From positions 1 through 37,957 of the forward strand of contig VHDF01000042.1 in assembly GCA_016871495.1 (NCBI GenBank): 37,957 bases of DNA, read 5' to 3'. The notes beneath the pieces were generated by a model. The model did no database searches. It was not told the origin of the DNA and saw only the letters and a program-made list of their open reading frames with translations. Below, piece by piece: positions 20,845-31,781 of this stretch (position 1 is the first letter of the stretch; the number at the start of each line of letters is the position of its first letter). The stretch comes from Verrucomicrobiota bacterium. Lineage in GTDB: Bacteria; Verrucomicrobiota; Verrucomicrobiia; Limisphaerales; VHDF01. The position numbers and the translations under genes were made by a program.

Positions 20845-23271
20845 ATGAACTCTCGATTGATCATCCCCACCCTTGGAATCCTGGCCTTTCTCGTCTGGGC
20901 CGCCACCGCACAGAACAATCCGCCGACCGCGGCGCCCGCCGCGGCCAACCCCTCCCCGGCCGCCACCGCGCCCACCACGCCTGCCCCCAATGCTCCCGCT
21001 CTGCCGGGCTTGCCCGAAAGGCCCGCCCGTGTCACCGCGCGCCCCGCTCCAGCCACGCCTTCCACCAACGCCCCTGCCGCCTCCCCACTTGGTACCGCCG
21101 CGGCTCCCGGAACCCGCCCCTCGCTCTTCCCCCCTGTGCCCGGCCAGACCACCGCGACTCCCGCCAACACCAACCAACCGGTGGTCATCCGTCCCGGCAC
21201 CGCGGTGGCCGGATCGGTTCCCGGCGCTGCCGGCGCCGACGACGGCACCGATCCCGCACTGGAGCCCGGCACGGTTCAGATCAGACCGCGTTCAGGCTCC
21301 CGCCTGAACATGGAGGATCTCATGAAGGGCTTCAGCTGGTCCGGCGCTCCCATCGATCAAGTTCTCGATTACTATGCCCAACTTACCGGCCGCACCGTTT
21401 TGCGCCCCTCCAGCCTGACCGGCACCGTCACCATCAAAACTCACAACGACCTCACCCGCCGCGAGGCGATCGAGGCCTTGGACAGCGTGCTGGCCTTGAA
21501 CGGCATCACCATGATCAACCGCGGCGAGCGCTTCGTCAAAGCGGTCCAGCAGCAGCAAGCCGGTCAGGAAGCCGCCGCCTTCTCCAACGTCAATGAGAAG
21601 GACCTGCCTGAAGCCGAGCAGTACACAACCCAAATCGTTCAACTCAAGAACGCCAAGCCCAGCGAAGTCGTCCAGGCCCTCACTCCCTTCGCCAAAAATC
21701 CCACCGGCATCGTCGGGATCGATTCCAGCCAGATCATCGTGCTGCGGGATTACGCCGCCAATGTCAAACGCATGCTGGAGGTGCTCAAGAGAATCGACGT
21801 GGTGCCCGAGATGGATTACCAACTCGAAGTCATCCCCATCAAATACGGGAAGGTCGAGGACATTTACAACACCATGAGCAGCCTCATCGGCGGCGGGGGC
21901 GGCGCTGTCGGTTCTTCCACCCGCAGCACACGATCCACCGCCACGACGGGAGGACGGGGTGGCGCGGCCTTCGGAACCGCCGCCCTGCAGCAACAGCGCA
22001 CCGCCTTGCAGCCCAACCAACCCGTCGCCCAACCCAATCAATCGAGCTTCCAAGACCGGCTCAATCGCCTGGTGAATCGGGCCTCCGGCGGAAACGAAGC
22101 TCAGTTGCTCACCGACGCCAAAATCATTCCTGACGAGCGATCCAATTCGCTGATCGTGTTCGCCAATAAACAAGATCTCAAAATGATCACCAACATCGTG
22201 GCCAAGGTCGATGTCGCCCTGGCCCAGGTCATGATCGAAGCCATCGTTCTCGAAGTCACGCTCGGCGACAACCGCAACATGGGCGTCAGCTATTTGCAGC
22301 GTCCGCAGTCGTCCGGACAGTTCAGCGGCGCCGGAGGCGTCAATAACGGCCAGACTTTCATCAATCCCAAAAGCTTCCTCACCGCGGCCACCTCCAACGC
22401 CCCCTCGGGGCCCGCCGGCATTGGAGCCCTGCCCTCGGGTTTCTCCTACTTCGGAGTCTTCGGCAACGAGTTCGATGTCGCCGTCACCGCCATTGCCGGC
22501 GACAGCACCGTCAACGTCATGTCCCGGCCCCGCATCGTCACCTCCCACGCCGTTCCCGGAAGCTTCTTCGTCGGGGACACCGTTCCCTACATCACCGGCA
22601 CGAGCTACGGCTACGGTGGCTTCGGCGACTCGTTTGGCGGCAACCGCTCCACCTACACCCAGCTCAGCGTCGGCATTCAACTCGATGTCACGCCGTTCAT
22701 CACGCCGGATGGACTCGTGGTCATGGAGCTGCAACAGAACATCGAGCAACTCGGCACCACCGTGAAAATTGACAACAACGACGTGCCCACCACGGTCCGC
22801 CGCACCGCCAATGCCACCATCTCCGTCCGCGATCGCGACACCATCATGCTCGGCGGTTTCATCAACTCCAACAAAACCAAAAGCTCATCCGGCGTGCCCG
22901 GCCTCATGAGAGTTCCGGTCCTCGGCAACCTCTTCAAAAGCAAATCCGACAACAACAAACGCGTCGAGTTGATCGTCCTCATGCGCCCTCTGGTGCTGCA
23001 ATCGCCCAAAGACGCCGCCGTCCTCGCCCGCGAAGAACTCGAGAAACTCCCCGGCGTGCGCCGCGCGCAAGTCGATTGGGAAAAGGAAGAACAGACCCGC
23101 ACGGACAAAGCGAACAAGGAAATCAAAGACAAACGGTCGAAGAACAAGCAATCCGGCAACGTGCCCAAGGATCTGCTGTTCGATCAACCCGCCCCGACAT
23201 CCCCGGCCGAACTTCCTCCACCTGCGCCCGAAACCAAACCGCCCGCCGCTCCCGAATCGACCAAGCCGTAA
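20845..23271 (+). CDS. gspD: Type II/IV secretin
   Basis: This is the outer-membrane secretin that forms the exit channel, 808 residues. A signal peptide (MNSRLIIPTLGILAFLVWAATA) precedes about 135 residues very rich in Pro, Ala and Thr. Next come ring-building N domains: a GFSWSGAPIDQVLDYYAQLT segment near 160, TQIVQLKNAKPSEVVQALTPF at about 258, and LEVIPIKYGKVEDIYNTMSS at about 330. A Gly/Ser/Thr- and Gln/Asn-rich insert is followed by AKIIPDERSNSLIVFAN. The secretin core has VMSRPRIVTSHAVPGSFFVG, a Gly/Tyr-rich gate region, and the signature GVPGLMRVPVLGNLFKS. After the core comes a Lys/Glu-rich then Pro-rich tail of about 80 residues. It is the last gene of the module, 24 nt after the PilO-like gene. 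Pseudopilin and GspF-like genes are not in the window. Confidence 0.93.
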   Translation: MNSRLIIPTLGILAFLVWAATAQNNPPTAAPAAANPSPAATAPTTPAPNAPALPGLPERPARVTARPAPATPSTNAPAASPLGTAAAPGTRPSLFPPVPGQTTATPANTNQPVVIRPGTAVAGSVPGAAGADDGTDPALEPGTVQIRPRSGSRLNMEDLMKGFSWSGAPIDQVLDYYAQLTGRTVLRPSSLTGTVTIKTHNDLTRREAIEALDSVLALNGITMINRGERFVKAVQQQQAGQEAAAFSNVNEKDLPEAEQYTTQIVQLKNAKPSEVVQALTPFAKNPTGIVGIDSSQIIVLRDYAANVKRMLEVLKRIDVVPEMDYQLEVIPIKYGKVEDIYNTMSSLIGGGGGAVGSSTRSTRSTATTGGRGGAAFGTAALQQQRTALQPNQPVAQPNQSSFQDRLNRLVNRASGGNEAQLLTDAKIIPDERSNSLIVFANKQDLKMITNIVAKVDVALAQVMIEAIVLEVTLGDNRNMGVSYLQRPQSSGQFSGAGGVNNGQTFINPKSFLTAATSNAPSGPAGIGALPSGFSYFGVFGNEFDVAVTAIAGDSTVNVMSRPRIVTSHAVPGSFFVGDTVPYITGTSYGYGGFGDSFGGNRSTYTQLSVGIQLDVTPFITPDGLVVMELQQNIEQLGTTVKIDNNDVPTTVRRTANATISVRDRDTIMLGGFINSNKTKSSSGVPGLMRVPVLGNLFKSKSDNNKRVELIVLMRPLVLQSPKDAAVLAREELEKLPGVRRAQVDWEKEEQTRTDKANKEIKDKRSKNKQSGNVPKDLLFDQPAPTSPAELPPPAPETKPPAAPESTKP

Positions 23272-23399: not shown

Positions 23400-24017
23400 A
23401 TGCCACACGAACTCCCTGCCCTGCCCTACGCCCACGACGCTCTCGAACCCCATATCGACAAAGCCACCATGGAAATCCATCACGGAAAGCACCACAACGC
23501 TTACGTGACCAATCTCAACAAGGCTTTGACGGGCAACGCCGCCCTCGAAGCCATGCCGATCGAGGACTTGATCAAGAACCTGGGCTCCGTGCCTGATGCC
23601 ACTCGCGGACCGGTCCGCAACAACGGCGGCGGCCACTACAACCACGCCCTGTTCTGGAAACTGATGAGCCCTGGCGCGGGCGGCGCGCCGTCCGGACCGC
23701 TGGCCGCGGACCTCCAGGCCGCCTTTGGAAGTTTCGAGGCCTTCAAGGAGAAATTCGAAGCCGGCGGCGTCGGCCGCTTCGGAAGCGGCTGGGTCTGGTT
23801 GATCGTCAACAAGTCCGGAAAACTCGAAATCGTCTCCACCCCCAACCAGGATAATCCGGTCATGGACGGTACCGGACGGCCCATCCTTGGCTGCGATGTG
23901 TGGGAACACGCCTACTACTTGAAGTACCAGAATCGCCGGCCCGACTATCTCAAGGCGTTCTGGAATGTGGTGAATTGGAACGAAGTGGCCCGTCTCTACG
24001 CTCAAGCCAAAGGCTGA
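23400..24017 (+). CDS. sodA: Superoxide dismutase, Mn-type of the Fe/Mn family
   Basis: It converts superoxide to hydrogen peroxide and oxygen. The 205-residue protein has all four metal ligands: His27 (EIHHGKHH), His82 ([11 protein letters not shown]), Asp166 and His170 ([18 protein letters not shown]). Metal-type markers favour manganese: Gly at the position before the HYNH block where Fe enzymes carry Gln, and Gln150 in TPNQDNP, where Mn enzymes carry the second-sphere Gln. The CDVWEH segment has Cys where E. coli SodA has Leu. Cambialistic use of Fe cannot be excluded. There is no signal peptide, so it is cytoplasmic. It is probably monocistronic, with an interval of 128 nt upstream and a strong intrinsic terminator 30 nt downstream. 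Confidence 0.93.
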
Positions 24018-24166: not shown

Positions 24167-25141
24167 CTATTGCACCGTCACCGCCCGGTAGAAGCGCGGA
24201 CCTGAACCTTGAGCGTTGGGATCGGAGATGCGAACGACTCCATTCACCGAATTGGTGGTCATGAGCGGCGTCCAAACGTCAAACGAAGTTGTCCACTCGA
24301 TGGTGTATTCCCCGCCGGGCAGTCCGCTGAGATCGAATTGCAGGGATCCATTGCTGAACCCTGGAGGTGCAAACCTTGCCGGGGCCTCCAATCGGTAGGT
24401 CAAGTTGGCCGTCCCCGTCGCTCCATTCACACCATCGACCGCAATGTAATAAACCGTCCCTCGAATGATGGGCACCACGACTTTGCTGTCCTTCCCGTCC
24501 GTTCCGCCATCGTTGTCGCAAGCGACAGGAGTCAACGTCGCAAAGTCCGCCGCGTTCCCCGTGTAAACCGCCAGCACGGTGTCGAAATCGCTGCCATCCG
24601 TGGTCAGCGTCAGGAACCCGTCGGCTTCCGGAGTGTAGGAAGTCCACTGACTGGACCCGCCGATCACACCGCAATGCTGAGGCTCCCCTTCCTCCGTATT
24701 CGACCCGAATGAGTTGAAGATCTGGCTGCCGGAATAACCGCGCGCCACAGCCGTTCCTGTCCGCCTCGTCCGGGGCAATCCGCCCAACGCCCTTTCCAAG
24801 GGCAGAGGCGACGGGGTCAATGCATCCGAGGAGAGTTCCAGAAAGAGAACGGCATCCGACAACTTGTCTTCGCTGGAGACGTTTGCATTGACCTTGTCTC
24901 CTTCGCTCAAGTTGACCTGTAACCTCGCCGATCGGCTGGTGATGCTGGCTGAGGGATTCGAGACCTCGACAACGTAATCGCCAAGATTGGTCAACTGCAC
25001 GGCCGTGATCGAAAGTGTTTCGGAGGTCGCCCCTGGGATGGCGGCTCCATTGAAAAACCATCGATACGTAATGGGATTGAGGGAGCCCACCGGATTCACC
25101 GCGGCCACTTTGAATTCCGCCGCGGCGCCCAACCGGGTCAC
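24167..25141 (-). pseudogene. Fragment 4: Ig-like domain and C-terminal domain
   Basis: The frame starts at a GTG that overlaps the stop of fragment 3 (GTGA). Its first residues are already inside an Ig-like domain: LGAAAEFKVAAVNPVGSLNP, then YRWFFNGAAIPGATSETL, then LGDYVVEVSNPSASI. Upstream the frame reads PQTVV, the expected Ig beginning. A frame change rather than a new gene therefore joins the two. After a linker, SQWTSYTPEADGFLTLTTDG and FDTVLAVYTGNAADF match a domain common in verrucomicrobial secreted proteins. The end, GGEYTIEWTTSFDVWTPL..FYRAVTVQ, is a typical C-terminal module. Confidence 0.75.
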
Positions 25142-28100
25142 GACCGTTTGCGGATGACTGTGTTCTTGGCGGAAAGCGCGACTTGAAACGTCCGGCTCGA
25201 CCGGGCGCCCTGCTCATCGATCACCGACACCGTCACCAGCGCCGATCCCGTGGCGTCGGCTGAAGGCGATATGCTTAATCCACGCCGGGCCCCCGTTCCT
25301 TCGATCTTCAAGGCGGCATCCGGCAGCACACTTTGATCGCTCGACCTCGCCACCACTTGCAGTTTCTCGACAGGTGTTTCAGCGTCCGTAACCACGATCG
25401 AGATGGGACCGATGACGCGCCCACCCACGCTCACCTGATCTTGAATCTCGTTCAGGGTCGGCGCCGTGTTCGCTCCTTGGTCGATCGAATGGGCGTTCAC
25501 GCTGAGCACGTAACGAACCGGTGTCTTGTTGCCGGGATCGCCGTGCAGAACCAGCACGTACTCGGCGGCACGCGGAGGCAGATATTCGAAATCGTTGTTC
25601 AACGCTGTCCCTCCCAGGGCCTCGTTGGCCGTGCCGTAGAGCGTCCAATAGGCGCCGGCATCCAGCCCCTGCCCGTTGAAATACAGCCGCTCCTTGCCCG
25701 TGACCGTGAGCCGAAGGATCCGCGCGCTGGTCGGGGGATCCAACACCCCGTCGAATGCGGTGTTGTAGCGAAGCACCGGCTGCGAGGCGACGTCAAAGAG
25801 CTGAAAAGCAAAAGCGCCCTTCGCATCGCCGCTTCCGTCAATCGACAGGGTAAAAACGCCCGATTCGCCAAGGGTCAACGGGCCAAAATCACCCCCCGCG
25901 GCAAACTCGCGCAAAACCCCGCCTGAAGGATTGATGAAGCGAGCGCGCAGGGACGCATGCTCCGCGAACAACGAATCGAAGTACAACTTTTGACCGGGAA
26001 AACCCTTGAACTTGAACATCGAAAAATCCCCGGCCCGTTCCAAGACGCCTTTCATCACCGCACCGAGCTCCAGTTCCAAATCGGGAATGGAAGCGACATT
26101 GACGCTGAATTTGAAGCTCGGCGGCTTCTCGGCATGACTCGTGAGGACCAGCAGGTGCACCCCTGTTTGGGTGGCGACGGATTCGAAATCGCGATTGATG
26201 GTGTTGCCACCCAGAGCCGCATTGCCTGGACCGTAAAGATTCCACGCCCCCGTAAATTCCGAACCCAAACCATCGAAGAAAAGTCGCTGGCCGGCCGTCG
26301 CCAGCACCTTGTAAATCACCGCGCCGAATCCCGGATCCACGACGCCAGCATACTCGCGATTGAGGACCAACTCAGGCTGGCTTCCCATTTCAAACACTCG
26401 AAATGCAAAGTCCCCGATGGCGCCGCCGTTGGCATCAATGACCACTCGATAATGGCCATTCCCCCCCAAAGTCACAGGACCCCGGTCATTGTCGATCGCC
26501 ACAGCGAACAAATCAGCGCCCGACTCCACATCCTGAACGCGGGCCACACCTCCGCCAAATCCCTTCATACCGTCGAAATACAGCCGCTGCCCCGCCACGC
26601 CTGCAAACTCGAATATTCTGCGATCCCCCGGCAGCGAAATGCTGCCGGACACCACCGAATTCAACGGCAGCTTCTCCGTGGTCACACGTGCCGGCAAAGC
26701 CCGGAACGCATAGCCCGCCGGAGCCGCCGTCCTTCCGTCCATCGTCAGAACATAAACGCCATCGGACGGAAGGATGACCTCCATATCAGCGCCCCAATGA
26801 ACCTGCGCCAGCACGGCGTTCTGGGGACTGTAAAGTCTCCAATCGCCTCCATTGGTGCCCAAGCTGTCGAAGTACCACCGCTGCCCAGCCCCCCCCAACA
26901 ATGCATAAGGGGTGATCCCCAACCCCAGGTCGTTGACTTTGCGAATCTCCACCCCTGCCTCAATCCTGGCTGCTTTCGCCAAATCAAGCATCCGGAATCG
27001 AAAATCCGCTCGCACTCGAGAACCATTGTCCACCAACAACGTGTAACGCCCGCCCATCTCGAGGCTGAATGGATTGGTATCCGAATCCGAATTGCCATTG
27101 ACGTGCTGCACTCGTCCCACCGGTCCGTAAAGACGCGAACTAACTCCATCGAAATCCGCGTCAAGAGCGTCGTAAAGCAGCCTCTGACCGACGGAACCGT
27201 CGAGAGTGAATTGGCGCGCTTCGCCGGGATCGAGATCTCCCGCGACGCTCTCGCCCAAGGACAGCGCGGGAGCCTGGGAAAAGTTGAGCAGGTGAAACTT
27301 GTCGGTTCCGGTTCCCCTGACTTGCAAGGTCAGCTTGCCATTCTTCGGGATGATGAAAGGACCGCTGTCTCCATTGGACCCCACGGTGAAAAGATTCGCC
27401 CCACCAGCCGGGGCCTCACGCAAATCCACCAAAACTCCCCCGGCCGGATCCTGCGCATCAAAGTAAACCAAATGCCCGGCCACACCATCGAATTCAAACC
27501 GGTTCGTTCCTCCGCCCGTCACGGATCCTTGAATCAGTTGCCCGAAACCCGCAAGCGTCCCCGTGGGCTCCTCCAAAACGGTCAGCAAGAATCCATAAGG
27601 CAGCGAAGCGGCCGGATTATTGTCTGACACGATCATGACATAATGCTCGCCTGACTCCACCAGAGCGAAATCCAAGTTCCTCGCCCTCAACCCGCCAAAA
27701 TCGGTCGTCACTCCCGAAGGATTCACCAACCGGGCCGAAATGCCCCCGTCCGTGGCACCCGCCCCGGCCAGTCGCATCCGTTGTCCCGCCTTGGCCGAAA
27801 ACCGATACAAATCCATGCGAGCCCCCGGAACCAGCGCCCCCACCACATTGCCTCCGATGCTGATCGGAGCCGAAGCCGCCAAATCAAGCGCGCGAAATTG
27901 AAAGTCACCCACCCAGGCCCTGGATGCGGTGAACGTAATGCGATGCTTCCCGGTTTCCTTGAAAACTTCCACCGCCCCATCCGCCGCGCCCCCTGACCCC
28001 AAATCCCCCGCCGGCGGACTCGAGAAAACATACCGAACCGGGGCGACGCCACCAAGAGGCGAAAGCCAGTCCAAGATGACCTTTTGCCCCGCCACGCCGT

Positions 28101-29553
28101 CGAAAAGGAATTGGATGGAATCGCCCGGATTCTGAATGGCACCCCGCGTCGTTTGACCCAAGAGCAGAGCCGACTGCGCGGCGACCATCGGAGTGACCCG
28201 CAGGCCATAAGGAACCGGATTCTCCGAATTGCCATCCAGCACTAAAAAATACTCGCCGTCACCCGGAAGGGTCACGGTGGAGTCGCCGGTCAAGTTGCTT
28301 CCCGTCAGCCAGCGTCCGGTCGGCTCATAGAATCCCCAACCGGCAGCGGTGGAAGGGCCCATAAAGTCCAGGTATAACCTTTCGTCAATCTTGCCTCGAA
28401 TGCGGAAGATAACGCTCTGATTTCCTCGCTCCATGGAGTCACCCTGATCCCAAAGCAGGTACATTGCATTGCCCCCAAAGCCCTCCTCGAACTGTGCGCG
28501 CATGCGATAAACACCCGGCGCAACGGGCACGGAGGCCGGGCCGACCCTGATGGCCTGGCCCTGGCCCCAGTTGTTGTCCGTGAGCTCCGGCGAAGCTTTT
28601 TCGAATTGCCCATTTCCATCCAGGTCGATCCAGAGGCGGCTGCCATCGTCGCTCGAGGTGAAAAACCGCGTGTTCGGGATCGTGACCAGAACGGTGCCAT
28701 CCCACTGAACCGAATAGTCTTCCCAATTGTCATCCGTCCCTTTGGTCAACCCGACTGCGGCACGAGAGCCCCAATTCGGATTGTCGAAGGCGATCTGAGA
28801 GTCGGCTCTTTTCCCCGCCACAGGTTGCGTAATCCGCCAATCATCCTGCTCTGGATGGCTCCTTAAACTGGAGTTGATATAGGTTCCCACGACATCCAAA
28901 GCTGGGGCCGGCACCACGGAGAAGCCGTACGCCTTGCCATACTCCAAATCGCGCACGGCGGAGGATCCGAGGTCGATCCACCGAAACGCGTAATCTCCCG
29001 TTGTCGCTCCGATGCCATCCAGCACGAGCGTGTACACGCCGGCCTGGCCGATCGTAAATGGACCGCGGTCCGTGACTCGATTGACCTCCCAAAGCGATTC
29101 CCCTCCGGGGCCGAGCAGCCGGGCGTGAACGGATCCGGGATGATTGCTTTGCGCATCGAAGTAAAATTGTTGCCCCACGCGGGCGGTGAACCGGAATTGG
29201 TGCTGGTCACCCGGGCGAAGAATCGAACCCTCCAAGCGCTGGTTCATGAGCAAGTCCTCCACCGCGTGTTCATACGCGTTCACCCGGAAAGCAAAAGGAA
29301 TCGGGTTCGGCGCTCCATGCCCGTAGATGAACAAGTGATACGCCCCGGCGCGCGGGAGGGTCAGCTCGAAGCTGCCCGATAATCCCACATTCCCCAACGT
29401 CTCGTTCGCGGGACCAAACAAAATCATGCCGCCGCCCGCTTGCCCCCACAGACCGTTGAAAAAGAGCCTCTCCCCCTGCCGGCCTTCATAACGGTAAGCC
29501 TGCAAAACCGTTCCGGGATCCAGGCTCTGTCCCGCTTCCCATTCCAGGAACAT
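25138..29553 (-). pseudogene. Fragment 3: twelve PPC-like units, PA14-like module 2 and a cadherin-like domain
   Basis: This is the largest open part (1,471 codons). Its ATG at 29553 lies just after the internal TAA in the same frame as the preceding module remnant, so it is not a natural start and has no signal peptide. It contains 12 PPC anchors and an intact PA14-like module (about 212-380) with DDWRITQPVAGKR, then TSSDDGSRLWIDLDGNGQFE and EEGFGGNAMYLLWD. A cadherin-like domain near the end (about 1365-1470) contains APTLNEIQDQVSVGG and ALVTVSVIDEQGARS. It leaves the coding frame at ..NTVIRKRS. Confidence 0.8.
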
Positions 29554-29737
29554 CGTGTTTGCTCCGAATTACTCCGCATACTGGACACGAAACGCGTAAG
29601 TGCCCGCCGGAATCCGCTCCATCGGCCCGCGCCGGGTCGTGCCTTGACCTTGGCCCCAATTATTATTGAGAAACTCCGGACCCGTTTCTTCAAACTTGCC
29701 ATCCGCATTCAAATCAACCCAGAGCCGACTGCCATCG

Positions 29738-31252
29738 TCACTGCTGGTATAGAGCCTCGCGCCTTCCCGCCACCTGCTGGGTGACACGCCAGTCATCCTG
29801 GGTTGCGTAGCTCCGCAGGCTTTCATTGATATAACTCCCCACGACTTTGATCAACGCCGAAGCGGGTACACTCTCAATGCCCACTCCATACGTCGTGTTC
29901 AACTGCAAAGCCCGCACGGGCGGGGACGCAAGGTCGAACAACCGAAACCGATAAGCCCCGATGTTCCCCGCCCCTCCCTCCACGATGAACTGATACTTGC
30001 CGAACTCCGTGAGAGTCAACGGCCCGAAGTCGGAATCCATTCCCCTGAAAAAAAGATCCGCCCCACCCGGCGAGCGCAAACGAACCGTCGCCCGGGTGAA
30101 CCCCTCGATGGCATCGTAAAAAAGACGCTGCCCGGGCGCCCCATCGAACTCGTAGACCGCATCCTCGCCCGCCGCGTTGATCTCCCTGGACACCAGAGCT
30201 CCCAGCCCCAGGACCTGCGTCCGGGTCCCGGCCCTCGATGGAACCAAGTCAAAAAAAGCCGGTTCACGACCTCCGCCCCCGATTCCCAACACGTAAATCG
30301 ATTCGAAGACCGTGGTAAACTCCAAATCCGCATTCCACGAATTCTGGCTCAGGATCTCATTCTTGGGACCATAGACCGCCCATCCCCCGCCATTGGTCCC
30401 ACGCCCGTCAAAAAACCAGCGTTCCCCGGCCTTCGCCGCGAATCGGCGGAAGATAGCCCCCGTTGGCGGATCCATCTTGCCTGTCAAAGGCGAACCCAAC
30501 TCCAGCATCGGCGCTTGATCCACATCGAAATAACGGAATCGGAAGTCCGTTTTCACGTTGCTCACGTTTTCCGTAATCCAATAGTAACGCCCTGCGGCTC
30601 CCAGCGTGAAAATGCCAACATCATGATCCGCGTTCCCGTTCACAAATTGGATGTTCCCCGCTGAATTGAGGAGTCGAATGAGCACCGGATCGAAATCCGC
30701 ATCCAATGCGTCATAGAAGATCCGTATCCCCGCGGTCCCCTCAAAAGCAAAAACCTCGGTCTGCGCGATTTCCAAATCTCCCTTCATTTCCACGCCCGGC
30801 GGCACGTGTTTCAGTCCTGTCAAATCCAGCAACCTCAACCGATAGGCTCCGGTCCCCCGCACCACCACATCGTAGGCAGCACTGGAAGCAACCAAATGCG
30901 GACCCGAGTCCCCACTGGCACCCACCGTGAACATGTTCCCCCCGGTTCCATCCGAACGCCGAAAATCCACCACCACGCCTCCGGCTCCCCGGTTCAAACT
31001 ATCCAGGTAAACCCACTGGCCCGCCACGGCTTGGACCGTAAATCGATTCGTCCCTCCCGTAACCGAACCTTCCAAGATCTGCCCAAATCCGATCGATTGC
31101 CCCTTGGCATCCGCCGCCGCAGTCACCTCGAACTGATAAGAGAAAGCGAGGCTCCCTGAACCCGTCCCGGCCACCAGCAAGACACAAATACCGTCGGTGG
31201 GGAGCACCACTTCGCCTAAATCGGTCCGAAATCCGCAGCCGGAAATTAACAC
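29738..31252 (-). pseudogene. Fragment 2: four PPC-like units and the start of PA14-like module 1
   Basis: This segment holds four PPC anchors (GQWVYLDS, GIRIFYDA, GERWFFDG, GQRLFYDA). It then enters the first PA14-like module (SYINESLRSYATQDDWRVTQQVAG) and runs out of frame into a stop at 29738. The frame is open upstream of the ATG at 31252 back to about 31289, so that ATG is an internal Met rather than a true start. The module resumes at about 29760 in another frame (ARLYTSSDDGSRLWVDLNAD) and runs to the TAA at 29569-29571. Confidence 0.75.
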
Positions 31253-31288
31253 TTGGTCCGCGGCACCATAAAACTCCCAGGAGGCCGC

Positions 31289-31781
31289 TGTCGAACTTGA
31301 GACGCTGGCCAGCCAGCCCTTTCCAAAAATACACCACCGACTGCCGTTGCGGAGCCAAAACTCCGTTCACCGTCTTGCCCGACACAAGCTCCGGCCCGGA
31401 GGCCACATCAAGAATGCGGAACTTGAATTCTCCGGTGGATTCGCGAATGCCATCGACCGTGACCAGATAGTTCCCGGTCTCCTCCAAAGTCTGCAATCCC
31501 CCGTCGCGTCCGGCGACCGAGTTGAGCACCTGTTTTCCCGAAGGTGCAGTGACCGTGATCGTCAGTCCGCCATTGTCCGGCTCCAATCCATCCAGAAATA
31601 CCCGCTGCCCGGCGGTGCCTTTGATCGAGTAGCCGACGAGGCCACCCGCCAAGGCAATCTTCCCCTCAACGGTCTCGCCATACCGAATCACCGAACTGGC
31701 GGGCAAGAGCTGAGCCCAAGCCGGGAACGACTTCAGGAGAAATCCCGTGAGGAATCCGAGGAGGATGAGGGGTCGTTTCAT
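31289..31781 (-). pseudogene. Fragment 1: signal peptide plus the first PPC-like units
   Basis: MKRPLILLGFLTGFLLKSFPAWA is a clear signal peptide with an AWA-Q cleavage site. It is followed by one complete PPC-like unit (AGQRVFLDGLEP) and the beginning of a second (AGQRLKFDS). After FDS, near 31289, the frame continues to 30999 with non-homologous, Arg-rich sequence, while the PPC sequence continues in a neighbouring frame (AASWEFYGAADQVLISG). The frame change therefore lies within a few bases of 31290. Confidence 0.75.

Follow-up and report, generated by a model that had tools for sequence, protein, structure and literature searches.

The window, a 37,957-nucleotide stretch of contig VHDF01000042.1 from a Verrucomicrobiota bacterium, contains five successive open stretches on the minus strand that together tile positions 31781 to 24167. 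Piece 1 (31287-31781) begins with an ATG and a signal-peptide-like N-terminus, followed by a first PPC-like repeat (31679-31407) and the first third of a second. Piece 2 (29758-31300) carries the remainder of repeat 2, repeats 3-6 and the beginning of a first PA14/GEVED module, the remainder of which makes up piece 3 (29572-29757). Piece 4 (25159-29568) encodes 12 PPC-like repeats, a second PA14/GEVED module (~28971-28435) and a cadherin/Big_9-like domain, and piece 5 (24167-25156) encodes an Ig domain, a PPC domain and a C-terminal domain that ends at a natural stop. Chance does not account for stop-to-stop runs of 1476 and 542 codons: when the region was shuffled 200 times, the longest run averaged 167 codons and never exceeded 323.

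Traced by alignment to homologous proteins, the coding frame is -1 to ~31287, -2 from ~31300 to 29759, -3 from ~29757, across a TAA at 29569-29571, to ~25156, and -2 again from 25159. Alignments to the pieces were obtained for nine proteins of other genomes, several of which cross a break collinearly. Homologues from the same order whose frames are open where compared span the breaks in alignment, and relative to these the reading frame of the window gene is disrupted. Judging from this collinearity, the five pieces are a single gene of ~2,500 codons, and the original prediction of one broken giant secreted-protein gene holds, with homologues running across the breaks in order.

The reconstructed protein has 18 main PPC-like repeats of ~97 amino acids each (one split by the first lesion, according to the repeat profile), two PA14/GEVED modules, a cadherin/Big_9-like domain, an Ig domain and a PPC/C-terminal part. 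The proposed PPC/PA14/cadherin/Ig composition fared unevenly across its parts. The Ig domain stands (Ig_3 in piece 5, E 1e-4, below the cut-off), and open-frame paralogues back the cadherin/Big_9-like end. For PA14/GEVED the signal is there but weak: piece 3 shares 52-54% identity with the second copy, and its GEVED match (E 0.0006) lies below Pfam’s cut-off. The PPC match in piece 5 is weak (E 0.009), and what makes the main repeat PPC-like is its profile and fold, with no direct Pfam hit. Single repeat units gave no useful Pfam match, and the window units tested fall short of the curated score for PPC (PF04151); when units were pooled, 11 of 47 matched this family, weakly, at E up to 0.1.

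Structural comparison points in the same direction as the profile. Searched against the PDB, the repeat profile returned PliG and a collagenase domain (E ~1e-3). The predicted repeat fold (pLDDT 95.8) matches collagenase collagen-binding domains (TM 0.63-0.69) and PliG (~0.70), at modest E-values of ~1e-3 and with only 16-24% sequence identity in the best fold matches, and a beta-sandwich is common to the predicted fold and the solved PPC and collagen-binding-domain structures. From profile and predicted fold, we conclude that the main repeat is a beta-sandwich like that of PPC (PF04151), the clostridial collagenase collagen-binding domain and PliG, despite the lack of a direct Pfam match. The architecture as a whole suggests a role outside the cell, in adhesion or in a matrix.

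Tandem ~97-amino-acid PPC-like repeats, in 9-16 copies each, also occur in large secreted proteins of the same order (e.g., L045, L046, L047, L048 and L050) and in one from a Richelia sp. MAG (L029). In some of these, cadherin- or Ig-like domains follow the repeats and the C-terminal end resembles that of the window gene. They differ in having open frames of 1043-3248 amino acids in the compared stretches, and they share 25-44% identity with the window gene. The window’s tested neighbours are absent beside these homologues, except for a weak (25%) ABC ATPase match in L047. A contig scan of other genomes for close relatives found only a distant homologue (30%), and a literature search returned general pseudogene work and nothing on this family. 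The repeat itself (e.g., 31407-31679) is not covered by Pfam at the level of the single unit; it occurs in large proteins across the order and could merit its own family model.

Homologues switch frame, or continue past a stop, at the four positions originally proposed (~31290, ~29760, the TAA at 29569-29571 and ~25150). The proposed frame changes are present at three of them, but measurement against repeat copies indicates that the first two are net deletions and not point frameshifts. Boundaries are approximate, as the homologues are only 25-44% identical. Lesion 1 (31287-31300) lies within PPC-like repeat 2; it shifts the frame and removes a net ~17-20 nt, the size being 20 nt in 7 and 17 nt in 4 of 11 homologue pairings of adjacent matches. 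The repeat profile, which was seeded from two piece-4 repeats away from this lesion, splits here, with model positions 2-31 ending at 31287 and positions 35-95 beginning at 31297, which by arithmetic gives a net loss of 20 nt. Lesion 2 (29750-29765, at ~29757) falls within the first PA14/GEVED module, where ~137-140 nt are lost and the frame changes. The external homologue L046 and the gene’s own second copy agree on its size, the former giving 140 nt and the latter, by arithmetic, ~137 nt, and nothing in the first copy corresponds to residues 256-299 of the second. Lesion 3 (29569-29571) is an in-frame TAA with homology on both sides in the same frame, and a 54% match runs straight through it. 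At lesion 4 (25146-25165) the frame changes in the linker, variable among relatives, that joins the cadherin-like domain to the Ig domain; the match to a cadherin-like paralogue stops at 25156, and Ig matches begin at 25159 in a different frame.

Around the broken gene, the window neighbours that have a family model are uninterrupted: an epimerase, DUF5722, GSDH, CehA/McbA, a phosphoesterase, topoisomerase IV A, an M28 peptidase, a secretin, a superoxide dismutase, L28 and ABC genes. GC3 does not discriminate the pieces (0.61-0.72) from their neighbours (0.68-0.79), since the ranges overlap. The secretin is GspD-like, of the type II secretion kind, and lies near the broken gene on the plus strand (20845-23271), adjoined by the superoxide dismutase (23400-24017).

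Elsewhere in the genome the picture changes. The closest sibling of the gene’s C-terminal part is a cadherin/Ig/PPC gene on contig 68 (L055 ~5935-1608, minus strand), 44% identical to piece 5 over ~329 amino acids. It apparently lacks its 5' end, shows no PPC-like repeat block, unlike the window gene, and its lesions are two in-frame stops (minus-strand TGA at L055 4254-4256 and TAA at L055 3735-3737), flanked on either side by domain homology. Other genes with the shared C-terminal module, on contigs 76, 80, 85, 151 and 26, have no stop inside the matches. The original assertions that all other genes nearby are intact and that decay is concentrated at this locus are thus sound for neighbours with a family model and for the window, but not for the genome: given the stops in the contig-68 gene, decay is not unique to the window locus, and a minimum of two related giant genes are affected. 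A search of the same genome found no paralogue of the PPC-repeat part, and the suggestion that an intact homologue had made the gene dispensable is not supported.

So, what is this locus? Most probably, a giant exported repeat-protein gene has become an ordinary and fairly young pseudogene. The ancestral gene would have encoded a signal peptide, 18 PPC-like repeats, two PA14/GEVED modules and cadherin-like, Ig and PPC/C-terminal domains, and two deletions, one nonsense change and another change of frame would then have built up in it. Translation begun at the native start would now depart from the frame after ~165 residues. The loss may have been neutral or near neutral and appears fairly recent. 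Random substitutions create a stop in these pieces 3.4-3.7% of the time, and a single nonsense change fits ~27-30 neutral substitutions, or ~0.4% of sites (95% range ~0.01-2%); the three length changes fit 0.4-1.3% divergence at assumed indel-to-substitution ratios of 0.1-0.03. With so few events, these estimates of age are rough.

The most serious competitor is an intact gene carrying assembly or consensus errors. The genome is a draft of 201 contigs, two repeat-built genes in it look broken and, according to one study, assembly artefacts account for many of the pseudogenes reported in bacteria (PMC11017572). We nevertheless regard this explanation as quite improbable here. Base-calling errors do not look like net losses of ~20 and ~140 nt, which were sized on independent templates. 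Homopolymers are no longer than 4 at every break, despite runs of 7-8 elsewhere in the gene, and the types of break (two multi-base deletions, a stop and a frame change), lying away from long homopolymers, fit decay better than homopolymer miscalling. The gene also has no near-identical internal nucleotide repeats able to confuse assembly, the longest direct repeat being 44 nt at 70%. Control genes of the same assembly are open. RpoB has an open frame of 1276 amino acids, and giant frames of 2003-3447 amino acids are open, as are most other giant genes, although this last control is biased, since a frame that is open is more readily found. The 71 ABC_tran matches in the genome, none with an internal stop, are the fairer control. 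With the conserved neighbours open, and likewise most of the other giant genes, random assembly error is unlikely, and we infer that the organism itself, not just its assembly, carries the lesions.

In other bacteria, repeat proteins exposed at the surface often vary, which lends some appeal to phase or antigenic variation, with breaks that toggle or are repaired from silent cassettes, and to the original suggestion that variation in this protein had been selected. Nothing at the locus points to such a mechanism, and we consider it highly improbable: no tandem or simple repeats and no long homopolymers were found at the breaks, the one inverted repeat is weak (19 nt, 84%), and no donor copies of the repeat part were found elsewhere in the genome. 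All four separate breaks would, moreover, need reversal. Recoding by frameshifting and readthrough, or retention of the pieces as separate functional genes, would accord with the long open frames that are kept (piece 4 alone has 1471 codons counted from its ATG) but is scarcely credible, given that two breaks remove coding sequence inside a folded domain, a slippery heptamer is absent from every break and, by inspection, piece 1 alone has a signal-peptide-like start. Codon reassignment, considered for the TAA in the window gene and the TGA and TAA in its contig-68 sibling, was rejected for want of any supporting signal.

For annotation, decay of a single giant gene means that the separately predicted genes here are the remains of one. 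The locus also shows clearly how, with repeat copies inside and outside the gene as a yardstick, genuine deletions can be distinguished from errors of assembly. Both of the members whose C-termini are most alike are broken, and it is conceivable, if rather doubtful at present, that giant exported repeat proteins with a shared C-terminal module are being lost as a whole class in this lineage, perhaps after a change in lifestyle. The finding would be of wider interest only if further genomes of the same family confirmed such class-wide loss.
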